From Exiguobacterium acetylicum DSM 20416 (lineage in GTDB: Bacteria; Bacillota; Bacilli; Exiguobacteriales; Exiguobacteriaceae): 64,000 nucleotides of DNA. Shown here piece by piece: positions 39,428 to 47,120 of the stretch. The notes under the pieces are model-generated. The model saw only the letters and a list, made by a program, of their open reading frames with translations, did no database searches and was not told the DNA's origin. The stretch covers positions 362,501 to 426,500 of the forward strand of contig NZ_JNIR01000001.1 of assembly GCF_000702605.1 (NCBI RefSeq), in the 5' to 3' direction. The position numbers were made by a program, and so were the translations under genes. How positions within the stretch are numbered: position 1 is the first letter of the stretch; the number at the start of each line of letters is the position of its first letter.

Positions 39428-39449
39428 TTCATACATAAGGGGGATGACC

Positions 39450-40325
39450 GTGGATAAACGGGGTATGAGTGCGACATTCGTCGCCTACGTAATTGGTGGA
39501 CTATTACCGATCTACAAAGTATTTGCAACTGGTATTCCAGCATGGACGGTCGTTTCAATTCGGATATTGAGTGCGTTCATCTTCGTGACGTTATTACTGC
39601 GACTGACGAAGAAATTCCGATTCGTTCGTCAACTGTGGCAAAACAAACGCCAGCGCTATACCGTGCTTGCAGCAGGGCTTGTACTAGGTGGAAATTGGTC
39701 GCTCTATCTGTACGCCATCGGGGAAGGCTATATCGTTGAGTCGTCACTCGGGTATTACATCAATCCGCTCGTCAGCGTCTTGTTCGGTTTGATCTTTTTT
39801 AAGGAACGTCTGACGCGTCCGCAAATCATCGCCATCTTATCAGCGATCATCGGTGTGATGATTCTAACGCTCGGTTATGGTCAATTTCCGATCATCGCCT
39901 TCTCACTTGCCGTCTCGTTTGCTTTTTACGGTGTACTGAAGAAAAAGGCGGCAGCGGAACCATTATCCGGATTATTTCTAGAGACACTGGTCACGCTCCC
40001 GTTCGCTCTCTTGACGCTTGGTGTGACAGATAGTCAACCGCTTGCGATGCCAATGAGTGCGCTGGTTGCGATCATCATGCTCGGGATCGCAACAGCAGTC
40101 CAATTGATGTTATTCGGATACGGGATGCCGAAAATCCCGTTCGTCTACGTCGGGATTCTCCAATACATTGCTCCGACGTTGACGCTACTACTTGGAATTT
40201 ATCTATTTAATGACGTCTTTACGACGATTCACTTCATCGCCTTCCTGTTCATTTGGATTGCCGTTGCTTTATTTACGATCAGCGGTTTATCGGCAGGAAA
40301 GATGCGAATGAAGAAAGTGTCATAA
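39450..40325 (+). CDS. EamA/RarD-like transporter (first of a tandem pair)
   Basis: A protein of about 291 residues with ten predicted helices. The shared RarD features are the LGYYINPLVSVLFGLIFF helix and the two-fold EamA repeat. It has diverged near the N terminus (GGLLPIYKVFATGIP) from the canonical WGLLPLYWK motif. I chose the GTG because AAGGGGG lies six bases before it; the ATG two codons earlier touches that site. It precedes a second, more typical RarD gene by 16 bases and probably arose by duplication. Substrate unknown. Confidence 0.82.
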   Translation: MDKRGMSATFVAYVIGGLLPIYKVFATGIPAWTVVSIRILSAFIFVTLLLRLTKKFRFVRQLWQNKRQRYTVLAAGLVLGGNWSLYLYAIGEGYIVESSLGYYINPLVSVLFGLIFFKERLTRPQIIAILSAIIGVMILTLGYGQFPIIAFSLAVSFAFYGVLKKKAAAEPLSGLFLETLVTLPFALLTLGVTDSQPLAMPMSALVAIIMLGIATAVQLMLFGYGMPKIPFVYVGILQYIAPTLTLLLGIYLFNDVFTTIHFIAFLFIWIAVALFTISGLSAGKMRMKKVS

Positions 40326-40341
40326 CGAAAGAAGGGAATAC

Positions 40342-41226
40342 ATGAATCTACCTGGATTCTTCGCGACACTTGTCGCGTATATCATTTGGGGACTCTTACC
40401 GCTCTACTGGAAGATGCTCGCCAATGTACCGAGTGAAGAGATACTGGCACACCGGATTATCTGGTCGTTCTTATTTCTGCTCATCTTATTGTCGTTTCAA
40501 AAAGCTCTTGGGAAATGGAAGACGGCGTTACGCGATCCGTTCACACGTCGACTCTTTTTCTTGAACGGACTGATCATCAGTCTAAATTGGTTCATCTATA
40601 TTTGGGCCGTCAATCATCAATTCATCGTTGAGGCATCGCTTGGCTATTACATCAATCCACTCGTCAGTATCGTCTTCGGTGTCTTTTTCTTTCAAGAAAA
40701 GCTCTCACGGATTGAATGGATCTCGATTGTCCTTGCGACAATCGGCGTTTTGATTTTGACGATTGGTTACGGTGAGTTTCCATGGATCTCGATCGCTCTT
40801 GCCTTAAGCTTCGGCTTTTACGGCGTCGTCAAAAAGCGGCGACCGCTGGAATCAACGGTCAGTTTGACGCTAGAAACGATGGCGCCGCTTCCGCTGGCTT
40901 TGATCTTCCTCGGGTATTGGCAAGTACAAGGGTCGTCTTCGATGACCGAATCCGTCGGTACGATGACCGGACTCATCTTGACCGGGATCGTCACCGCCGT
41001 TCCACTTTTGTTATTTGGATTCGGGGCACAACGAATTCCGTTCACATGGGTCGGATTCCTTCAATTCGTCGCACCGACCTTGTCACTTGGACTCGGTGTA
41101 TTGCTCTATCACGAGCCGTTTACTAAAACGCACATGGTGGCGTTTACATGTATTTGGACAGCAGCGATCGTCTTTACGCTCAATGGTGTCTGGATTCGGA
41201 AAAAACAGCTCCGAAAAGTCGCGTAA
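40342..41226 (+). CDS. rarD: RarD-like EamA family transporter (second of a tandem pair)
   Basis: A 294-residue drug/metabolite-superfamily permease with ten helices. It opens with the typical AYIIWGLLPLYWKML and keeps EILAHRIIWSF, FIYIWAVNHQF, SLGYYINPLVS and GFLQFVAPTL. These blocks repeat in the upstream paralogue. RarD proteins are named for chloramphenicol resistance but their natural substrate is uncertain. It has a GAAAGAAGGG site and shares a transcript with the first copy. Confidence 0.88.
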   Translation: MNLPGFFATLVAYIIWGLLPLYWKMLANVPSEEILAHRIIWSFLFLLILLSFQKALGKWKTALRDPFTRRLFFLNGLIISLNWFIYIWAVNHQFIVEASLGYYINPLVSIVFGVFFFQEKLSRIEWISIVLATIGVLILTIGYGEFPWISIALALSFGFYGVVKKRRPLESTVSLTLETMAPLPLALIFLGYWQVQGSSSMTESVGTMTGLILTGIVTAVPLLLFGFGAQRIPFTWVGFLQFVAPTLSLGLGVLLYHEPFTKTHMVAFTCIWTAAIVFTLNGVWIRKKQLRKVA

Positions 41227-41968: not shown

Positions 41969-41978
41969 GAATATCTGG

Positions 41979-42013
41979 CATGCCCCTCTTGTTTAGAGGG
42001 GCATGTTTTTTTT
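41979..42013 (+). terminator. Terminator after deoC
   Basis: Perfect 11-base GC-rich arms (41979-41989 and 41995-42005) with a five-base loop, then T8. Confidence 0.92.
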
Positions 42014-42103
42014 ATGGGACTATTCTGAATTTAAATTTTGTATTAAGAAGTCGGACATCGCTTCCGATAATCAGATGTAGAATGTCGGAAGGATGTGGAA
42101 TGA

Positions 42104-43078
42104 ATGAAACGATGGAGTGGAATCATACTGGCATCGACACTTAGCCTCGCAGGGTGCGGCAGTGTCATCGATGATCCAGAACGGGCAGTCAAGGAGCGGA
42201 AGGAAATGGCAGTCGTCTTGTCGGATGTGGGTCTTGGCGATCAATCATTCAGCGATGCGGCGATGAGTGGTATGGCGTTGTTACGGGAGAAGGAAGGCTG
42301 GTCGATCGATTACCGAGAGTTAAATGAAACAAAGACTTATAAAGCAGCATTCGAAGCGTTAGCGAAAAAGAAACCGACCGTCATCGTCGGGCTTGGCTTT
42401 ATGGGGCAGACGGATCTTGAAACCGTTGCTAAAAAATATCCAAAACAACAATTCGCTTTGATTGATGCTGTATCGACGTTACCGAACGTACTCTCGGTTA
42501 CGTTCAAAGAGGATGAAGGAAGCTACTTAGCGGGTGCGGCTGCAGGGATTCAAACGAAGACGAACACGATTGGTTTCATCGGTGGGATGAAGTCGCCTCT
42601 GATCGAGAAATTTGAAAAAGGATACATAGCTGGCGCTAAAGCAGTCAATCCAAAAACGAAAGTACTCGTCGAGTACGCAGAGGACTTTGCAGCCCCGGAA
42701 AAGGGACGGACGCTCGCAAACGAAATGATGCAGAAAAAGGCAGACGTATTATACGCAGCTGCTGGATTGACGGGAAGCGGTGTCCTGGAGGCAGCGCAAA
42801 CGAAGGGGAAAAAAGCGATCGGTGTCGATAGCGATCAAACTCCGATCGCGCCTGACGCTGTCATGACGTCAATGCTAAAACAAGTTGATCTTGCGATTAC
42901 GAAAATCGGACAAGATGTGGCTGCGAAAGGTCTACAGTCCGGACAAGTCGTCCTGGGTGTCAAAGAAGGGGCAATCCAATTGGCTCCAATCCGAAACACG
43001 AACTTTACGGACGGGGAACGAAAAAAATTAGAGCAGCTACAACAAGACGTGCTCGAAGGTAAGGTGACGATTCAATGA
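42104..43078 (+). CDS. BMP-family (PnrA-like) substrate-binding lipoprotein
   Basis: A 324-residue secreted lipoprotein. The signal peptide ends in the lipobox LAGC (Cys18), so it is anchored to the outer face of the membrane. The basic-membrane-protein fold follows, with motifs [33 protein letters not shown] and FIGGM. Relatives such as PnrA/TmpC bind purine nucleosides, and Bacillus Med is a competence regulator of the same family. No ABC permease is encoded nearby. Its stop overlaps the start of a chemoreceptor gene (ATGA), so it may serve as that receptor's ligand-binding partner. This pairing is inference. Confidence 0.85.
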
Positions 43079-44724
43079 CGTTACGGAAACGATTTTTACT
43101 CTCAACGTTAGTGACGATTTTGAGTGTCGTCATCTTGATGGGATGGACCTTGTTCCAACTCCGTCAAATTCAATCCTATAACGAAGACTACGGGAAACAG
43201 CTCGTTGAGATTTCAGAACTCGAAACGAAGCTCTTATATGAACAGGCAGCATGGAACCGACTGGCAAGCCAGCCGTCTGAGAGTCAAGCGGAGCAAGTAC
43301 AGGCTCTTAGCAAAAAGAACGAACAAGCCTTGAATCAGCTACAAAAGACGTATTTGATTCCTGCATTTCAAGAAGAGTTGAACCGGGCGGATATGAAATA
43401 TAAGACGCTCGCTGCGAAACGGACGGACCTGACGGACGCGATGAATCCGATTGAGATTCGCTCCCATGCCGCACGAATCGAAGGTGTCCTCAGTGATCTC
43501 TACACGTTACATACGAAAAATGGAGAGTTTTATGATGTCTTACAACGTGAAGCAAAAGACGAGACTTTGAATTTGACGAGGACTGTCCTAATCGCGACAT
43601 TCATCCTCCTGATCGGTCTTGCGCTATACAACTGGTACTTCGCCCGTAGCATCACGCGACCGATCAGCCGTGTCGTCCGGACAGCAGAGCAAATCTCGGA
43701 CGGAGACTTGTCACAGGAACTAGTCGTATCCGGTCGAAAAGATGAGATTGGTCGACTCGAGACAGCGGTTGCCCAGATGCAAGGAACCTTGCATGAGGTC
43801 ATCGGAACGATCAGTCGTTCGTCGAATACGATTCGTCAGATGAGTACGGAAGCGACGACAGAGAACGCGAACATCGTTGAAGTTTCTGGCAACATGACCC
43901 ATGCGATCAATGAGATGGCAAGTGGTACTCAAACGGTGTCGGACGATATCCAGACGACAGTCAGTACGATGTCCGATATGCAACAGCTCTTTGAAGAGAG
44001 TGAACAACGCGCACAAACCGCTTATGCAGAAGGACAGGCGGCCGATCACGTGATGGTTCAAAGTAGTTCCGTCATGGAACAGCAAGCACGGTCACTTCGC
44101 GCGTCAACGGAACAAAACCGCGAACTCGGTCAGAAACTGGAAGGTTTCTTAGAACAGACGCAACAAATCGAGCAGATGGCACAACTCGTCGCCGGAGTCT
44201 CCGCACAGACGAACTTATTGTCACTCAATGCGGCAATCGAAGCGGCGCGGGCAGGGGAAGCCGGTCGTGGATTTGCTGTCGTGGCAAGTGAAGTCAAAAA
44301 ATTAGCCGACGAGACACACGAGGCGACGCGCTCAATCTTCTCACTCGTCCGTTCAATTCGTCAGGACGGTGCCGTCTTACAAGAAGCACTCGTACAAGCG
44401 GAGCGGGAGCAGACAAACCAGGTCGAGAACTTCACGCACGTTCAACAAGCATTCGGCGAGACGCGTCAAAAGGTAGCAAACGTGACAGAAACACTTGATT
44501 ATGTAACGAAACAACTCGTTCATTCGAAAGAACAAGCCCGCCATGTCGTTGGTCAAGTCAGCACAGTCAGTGGCGTCATGGAAGAACTTGCAGCTGGAAA
44601 TGAAGAGATTGCTGCTTCGATGCGCGATCAACAGGCATCGTTCGAACAGATTCATCAATTGATGCAAGAACTCGAGTCAACGACGACGTCGCTTGATAGT
44701 CAGACACATCAATTCAAAATTTAA
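43075..44724 (+). CDS. Methyl-accepting chemotaxis protein
   Basis: A 549-residue transmembrane chemoreceptor. An N-terminal helix (residues about 8-25), an extracellular helical domain of some 145 residues of the four-helix-bundle type and a second helix (about 171-189) are followed by HAMP ([20 protein letters not shown]). The long cytoplasmic coiled coil has the invariant hairpin tip [20 protein letters not shown] near residue 380. Such proteins signal through CheW to CheA. Translation is coupled to the upstream BMP lipoprotein by a four-base overlap. The small sensor domain fits sensing through a binding protein. Confidence 0.92.
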
Positions 44725-46369: not shown

Positions 46370-47120
46370 TCATTCCTCATAAATCATCTTTCGTGTCATC
46401 CCACCGTCTAAGACTAGTGTTTCGCCGGTCAAGAAATCATTATCTGGATGTGTTAGATAAAGAGCGGCTCGAGCGACATCACTTGGTTTTCCAACACGGC
46501 CGGCTGGATGTTGACTATGATCTTCAGGTGATAATTCTTGATAGTCACCGGTTTCAATCCAACCAGGAGCAATCGCGTTGACGAGTATTCCGTCTTCTCC
46601 GAGTGAGACAGCAAGTGCATGGGTCAGAGCAAAAATACCACCTTTCGTAGATGCATACGATTCTGTATGCGGTTCCGACATGAAGGCACGGGTCGAAGCG
46701 AGATTGACGATCCGACCACCACTTTTACTTTGTTTCAAATAAGGTGTAGCGGCCTTAGTCGTTAAAAAAGATACTACGCAGGTTCGTATGATGAACCCGA
46801 TCCCATTCCTCAAGTGACAATTCGAGTAAGGGTTTTCGAATCATGATACCGGCGTTATTGATGACGATGTCGATGCGACCAGTATGTTCAATCGCTTTTT
46901 CAATCAACAGTTGAACGTCTTTTTCGTGTTGGATATCGAGGTGATAGAAGTAAGCCGTTCCACCATCTTCTTCAATTTGTTGAACTAGTTCGTCTCCTGT
47001 CATCTGATCGATATCAGCAAGAATGACATTTGCGCCATGCGCAGCATATGTGCGGGCGAGTTCTGCTCCAATTCCATTCGCGGCTCCCGTAATGATGACG
47101 GTTTGATTAACATGATTCAT
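46370..47120 (-). pseudogene. Short-chain dehydrogenase/reductase interrupted by one frameshift
   Basis: Together the two frames give a complete classical SDR of about 250 residues. The N-terminal frame has the NAD(P) loop TGAANGIGAE, a DIDQ acidic residue favouring NAD, and NNAG. The second has the catalytic serine (NLAS), YASTK and the C-terminal GETLVLDGGMT. The frames switch at a run of six A on the plus strand (46,764-46,769). With five A the sequence would read RSIFLTTKAA without a break. It is either a recent inactivating mutation, a phase-variable tract or a sequencing error. Similar proteins are annotated as glucose or 3-oxoacyl dehydrogenases. Confidence 0.85.

Follow-up and report, generated by a model that had tools for sequence, protein, structure and literature searches.

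The gene pair and its surroundings

Two overlapping genes on the plus strand were examined in the window, by which we mean the whole 64,000-nucleotide stretch of Exiguobacterium acetylicum DNA that was analysed. The first (42104..43078) encodes a solute-binding lipoprotein of 324 residues, which belongs to the BMP/PnrA family with 217.6 bits against PF02608 (Bmp; curated cut-off 24.1) and whose AlphaFold2 model has a pLDDT of 91.5. Its lipobox, L-A-G-C, is located at 42146..42157, and Cys18, the predicted lipidated residue, is invariant in the aligned sequences (23/23). The second gene (43075..44724) encodes a methyl-accepting chemotaxis protein (MCP) of 549 residues. Its layout comprises TM1, a helical ectodomain (residues ~31-165), TM2, a HAMP domain (189-241) and an MCPsignal domain (314-475), with the transmembrane segments assigned by eye; Pfam recognises the HAMP and MCP signalling domains both here and in 22/22 relatives. 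Neither protein is named by NCBIfam at its cut-off. The lipoprotein stop codon (TGA, 43076-43078) overlaps the receptor start codon (ATG, 43075-43077) as ATGA, so the sequence-only reading of the locus as a BMP lipoprotein gene overlapping a chemoreceptor gene was correct in both reading frames and domains. The sequence AAGGTG (43061..43066, plus strand), within the 3' end of the lipoprotein gene, may be the ribosome-binding site of the receptor, and purine-rich stretches that may play the same role are also found at other pair junctions.

No ABC transporter gene was found among the open reading frames of at least 80 residues between 36.8 and 48.4 kb, several of whose functions were read from sequence, in agreement with the earlier remark that importer genes are absent here. 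Two further BMP genes are located elsewhere in the window genome (3.28 Mb). At locus L116 of this genome (C1:1473404-1484390), two importer-type BMP genes lie ~1 kb apart, and one of them is followed immediately by reading frames for an ABC ATPase and two permeases (functions read from sequence). The genome contains 13 MCP-domain genes in all. Among the other genes around the pair are two tandem EamA-type permease genes (39444-41226) and, on the minus strand, a short-chain dehydrogenase split over two frames (46755-47120 and 46370-46813, within 46370-47120) in a frameshift-like manner.

Upstream of the pair, deoC is followed by an intrinsic terminator (41977..42007, plus strand; consensus match) with a 13-pair stem containing 7 G-C pairs and a T-rich tail. 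The proposal that deoC is a functional partner does not survive, as this terminator stands between them and the sister genus has another gene upstream. Across the pair loci described below, a deoC match was found in 9/80 named loci, all of them genus-1 Exiguobacterium, and in 0/44 loci outside the family. Which genes recur beside the pair differs between lineages, and reading their sequences by eye revealed none for nucleoside metabolism.

A putative sigma-D-like promoter, TAAG-N15-TCCGATAA, was identified by eye at 42044..42070 (plus strand) and matches 9/12 positions of TAAA-N15-GCCGATAT, which we take to be the sigma-D consensus. In the scans, another register upstream of the window pair also scores 9/12, and a sigma-70-like match (42043-42071, 9/12) overlaps the site. 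By eye, the 42044..42070 stretch is also conserved upstream of the genus-1 pairs that were read on the plus strand. Across the pairs, sigma-D-like sites are mostly 60-75 bases upstream, and a score of at least 10/12 was reached at 66/133 loci, a set that includes near-copies, versus 3.8% of shuffles that preserve base composition only, with gene starts guessed from the lipobox. With a single locus per genus, the first one, and the same kind of shuffles and start assignment, 8/17 genera reached this score versus 1.4% of shuffles, and 6/17 scored 8 or less. For the other receptor genes of the window genome, 12 regions were collected, one without a reading frame, and 7 of the 11 scored reach at least 9/12, versus 14.6% of random window stretches.

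Conservation of the pair and a receptor-linked BMP branch

The lipoprotein was present in 38/38 genomes from the two genera of its own family, and the receptor begins at the end of the lipoprotein gene in 19/19 cases in genus 1 and 19/19 (11 + 8) in genus 2. The E. indicum lipoprotein is 99% identical to that of the window. We then used the lipoprotein as a query against 398 Bacilli genomes. All loci of the 44 best non-family matches (E <= 1.5e-64, 39-51% identity) were read, and an MCP gene on the same strand was found directly downstream in 44/44, so the pair is conserved well beyond this strain. The next 29 matches outside the family (E 2.0e-63 to 3.9e-58) had an MCP gene in 0/29 within the ~10 kb read, and BMP-type ABC ATPase and permease homologues were found beside 28/29. 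Therefore, the sequence class of a BMP protein tracks its gene partner, and the two match almost without exception. For one BMP gene (L250, G157:C21:42154-53110), the stretch read contains no chemoreceptor gene and no importer genes.

BMP-type permeases were found in 0/44 outside pair loci, and 5/44 have only a remote ABC ATPase match of ~32% identity, kilobases away. The window lipoprotein likewise has none of the adjoining importer genes that would mark it as a component of a BMP-type importer. The ATGA junction, read earlier as translational coupling, is real in Exiguobacterium, with ATGA in 29/30 junctions and TAATG in 1/30, but it is not general: a 4-base overlap occurs in 6/44 outside pair loci, and the others mostly have gaps of 9-40 bases.

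A scan of named genomes, which have species in common with the 398-genome set and are not independent of it, kept 80 loci of 402 relatives. MCP sequence is directly downstream in 80/80; the script counted 78/80, and L157, whose downstream MCP reading frame opens early, and L159 were added on reading. The genera with the pair include Metabacillus, Mesobacillus, Neobacillus, Fictibacillus, Priestia (with Priestia megaterium among the species), Anoxybacillus, Parageobacillus, Psychrobacillus, Solibacillus, Brevibacillus and Paenibacillus. A few members are broken or short, with a broken MCP frame in L159, a short MCP reading frame in L173 and a broken BMP frame in L229, which reflects decay or assembly error.

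The linkage was also examined in the reverse direction, from ectodomain to lipoprotein. A profile of the receptor ectodomain gave strong matches (E <= 1.1e-39) in 83/398 Bacilli genomes, followed by a drop to 1e-8. Of these, 82/83 are pairs already found via the lipoprotein, and the remaining one (G178) has a 30% identical BMP gene directly upstream with an ATGA overlap. All 83 strong matches thus adjoin a BMP lipoprotein gene. Four weak matches (7.6e-9 to 5.8e-8) showed no BMP gene in the stretches read, one of which is a contig of 4.4 kb. In 100 genomes of the family of G178, the ectodomain was found in 28 (3 counted before); a BMP frame precedes the ectodomain gene in 27/28, and the 28th has a broken BMP gene. 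A phylum-wide draw of 398 genomes contained the ectodomain in 9, all from the same class. CheA was present in 45/45 pair genomes tested, including that of the window.

The association is far above chance, and the two genes form a conserved unit across several Bacilli families. The gene linkage in both directions supports the earlier suggestion that the lipoprotein and receptor may be a dedicated sensing pair.

Phylogenetic analysis separates MCP-linked from importer-type BMP proteins with a support of 100/100 (IQ-TREE, 45 of the 123 linked plus 18 importer-type sequences), and FastTree gives the same split at 0.92 with all 123 linked and 18 importer-type sequences. Removal of duplicates had reduced the linked set from 133 to 123 and the importer-type set from 20 to 18. 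Neighbouring genes were used to verify the importer label of the 29 weaker matches (28 confirmed) and of one L116 gene of the window genome, and 11 Exiguobacterium sequences (L036-L046) were labelled importer-type from sequence alone. Residues L44, G45, D51 and R61 are each present in 123/123 proteins of the MCP-linked branch and in less than 20% of the 18 importer-type proteins; D46 is common to both. In the window, the stretch L44 G45 D46 ... D51 ... R61 (42233..42286, plus strand) is a candidate receptor-contact or structural signature.

Nucleoside-type pocket and receptor ectodomain

According to PMC13325309, the nucleoside site of BmpA consists of Asp19, Asp24, Phe27, Asp98, Phe151, Phe176, Val224, Asp225 and Lys242, and that of BmpD adds Asn28. 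The corresponding residues of the window lipoprotein are D41, D46, F49, D121, F170, F195, V241, D242 and K259, with S50 at the position of BmpD Asn28, so that all the nucleoside contacts are retained with this single exception. Among the 123 unique linked sequences, D46, D121, F170, V241, D242 and K259 are kept in 123 each, F195 in 122 and F49 in 121; the weaker positions are D41 (108) and S50 (103, with Asn in 19). Importer-type BMP proteins hold the same set, position 41 excepted, and the pocket therefore does not separate sensing from transport.

The closest solved structure by both sequence (E 1.4e-51) and fold is Lbp, and the Lbp-guanosine structure 7x0r is the best PDB match of the AlphaFold2 model. 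According to PMC9601137, guanosine was fitted to unassigned density in the Lbp structure. Since the pocket residues are nearly invariant and Lbp is the best match, a nucleoside is the likely ligand of the window lipoprotein, and a nucleoside-type pocket, in line with the earlier suggestion, is supported at the level of sequence. The further preference for purines has to be dropped: close BMP relatives take purines, pyrimidines or both as ligands (PMC13325309), so this cannot be told from sequence.

The pocket is not kept everywhere. In five genomes of genus g82, F49 is replaced by L or W, D121 by G or E, F195 by P or I, D242 by G and K259 by L, while L44, G45, D46, D51, R61 and the receptor are all retained. 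Nucleoside sensing of the known type is therefore not possible for every member. Because L44, G45, D46, D51 and R61 are kept in g82 despite the pocket loss, their retention suggests that they serve receptor contact or branch structure rather than the ligand. L240 is intermediate in this respect.

These observations bear on one alternative, in which the pair is dedicated but senses something other than a nucleoside (a flavin-like or another ribosyl compound, for example) or has a ligand that depends on the lineage. It would account for the g82 pockets, for Ser at the BmpD Asn28 position in the majority of linked proteins, and for the loop GLGDQSFSD of the linked branch, which is unlike the importer type; a relative of the BMP proteins, RfuA (4iil), contains riboflavin. 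However, the two aromatic residues and the D and K residues that contact the sugar hardly vary, and the closest solved structure was modelled with guanosine, and we regard this alternative as unlikely.

The ectodomain of the receptor had been described as a small helical bundle. Consistent with this description, receptor residues 1-190 are predicted by AlphaFold2 (57 sequences) to form a four-helix bundle with a mean pLDDT of 90.3. No Pfam ectodomain family, such as 4HB_MCP_1 or TarH, matched in any of 22/22 relatives (E <= 0.01), in which hits to other families were sporadic and weak. The ectodomain profile found no credible relative in the PDB (best E 0.015), and the model had no Foldseek match below 1e-3. 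The leading Foldseek matches include the sensor bundles Adeh_2942, NarQ, QseE with lipoprotein QseG, MCP2201, Vc1313 and Tar. When aligned with VIA-align, the ectodomain resembles LytS of the XylFII-LytS complex (5xsj; Z 13.5, rmsd 2.1 over 114 residues) and QseE (9m08; Z 12.6, rmsd 3.0 over 156). Designed and unrelated bundles score equally high, and the structural matches therefore show the fold only, not docking.

In the 57 ectodomain sequences, K108, G137 and D141 are conserved in 57/57, R134 in 51, N140 in 53 and Y153 in 55; the window receptor has Ser at the N140 position. The conserved residues are mostly in helices 3 and 4. K108, R134, G137, N140, D141 and Y153 could equally form a direct ligand site. 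This leads to a second alternative, in which the receptor senses directly at the bundle, as the direct sensors Vc1313 and MCP2201 with the same fold might suggest, and the lipoprotein is an accessory (a chaperone or ligand concentrator) or feeds an importer elsewhere, such as the BMP-type ABC importer found in the window genome. The two-way linkage over many families speaks against an accessory role, as does the rarity or absence of the branch-specific residues in importer-type BMP proteins, and we consider this second alternative quite improbable.

A candidate nucleoside-sensing module and related systems

It is well established that chemoreceptors and kinases can be stimulated by binding proteins (PMC9602780 and PMC6321045). 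XylFII-LytS is similar to the scheme proposed for the window pair, as a binding protein is read out via the helical-bundle ectodomain of a membrane receptor; according to PMC6321045, the two proteins are in contact in both the apo and the loaded state. It differs in its histidine kinase output and its sugar ligand, D-xylose. XylFII is presumably of Gram-positive origin and from a binding-protein family other than BMP. Tar, which responds to MBP, and other E. coli receptors are four-helix bundles that can be stimulated by binding proteins (PMC6321045 and PMC9602780). Unlike the MBP-Tar case, the window lipoprotein falls in a receptor-linked branch without adjoining importer genes. The E. coli binding proteins also serve an ABC importer and are not encoded with the receptor. 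PnrA, BmpA, BmpD and Lbp share the family, the fold and the nucleoside-contacting residues with the window lipoprotein. These proteins are regarded as importer components (PMC13325309), whereas the window branch is receptor-linked and is marked by a signature of its own (G45, D51, R61).

The comK activator Med has a homologue in Bacillus halodurans (structure 2hqb) that is distantly related to the BMP family. A 2011 study by Banse reportedly found that the sensor kinase KinD depends on Bacillus subtilis Med. Med/KinD thus resembles the window pair in that a BMP relative is tied to a sensor protein and not to an importer. It differs in that Med is only a distant relative and KinD, which carries a dCache domain (PMC11210211), is a kinase. 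The window lipoprotein is not a Med orthologue, with E 1.4e-51 to Lbp versus 1.9e-13 to 2hqb. A Med-like signalling lipoprotein that has lost ligand binding and only tunes receptor activity is very improbable, as the pocket is intact in nearly all members read and the protein is far closer to Lbp, even though Med, on which KinD reportedly depends, is related to BMP proteins and pocket-less pair members exist.

The earlier view that no BMP-chemoreceptor system had been described needs qualification: none was found in the open-licence literature, which is no proof of absence, but Med/KinD qualifies a broader claim for BMP proteins and receptors. The window pair differs from the known systems in its BMP family, its receptor-linked branch and an ectodomain without a Pfam family.

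As the pair is kept together across several Bacilli families, it is probably a dedicated sensor. We think it likely that the lipoprotein is a binding protein dedicated to the receptor, which reports a nucleoside to the chemotaxis machinery. The lipoprotein would be tethered to the outer side of the membrane and close around a small molecule, most likely a nucleoside, and may then dock on the four-helix-bundle ectodomain of the neighbouring receptor. The receptor would in turn alter CheA activity and hence swimming, presumably as an attractant response, and the pair may be controlled by the motility sigma factor.

We also propose, tentatively and with reservations, that a BMP branch left importer service and became a co-receptor for chemotaxis only. 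The result would be a two-gene, motility-controlled module for nucleoside taxis, in which the contact face (L44-G45-D46, D51 and R61) is fixed and the pocket is swappable, as in g82. According to PMC11120975, chemotaxis to nucleosides occurs in Bacillus and its receptors are not characterised; the pair is a concrete receptor candidate found across a wide range of Bacilli. If the proposal is right, the BMP-receptor module would fill the place of the missing nucleoside chemoreceptor in many soil Bacilli. It would also be a clear example of a binding protein that evolved for a receptor alone, in which pocket and branch residues come apart.

The genus g82 lipoproteins (L241-L245 and L198), whose nucleoside pocket is destroyed and whose receptor is still paired, are candidates for a new ligand or for ligand-free signalling.
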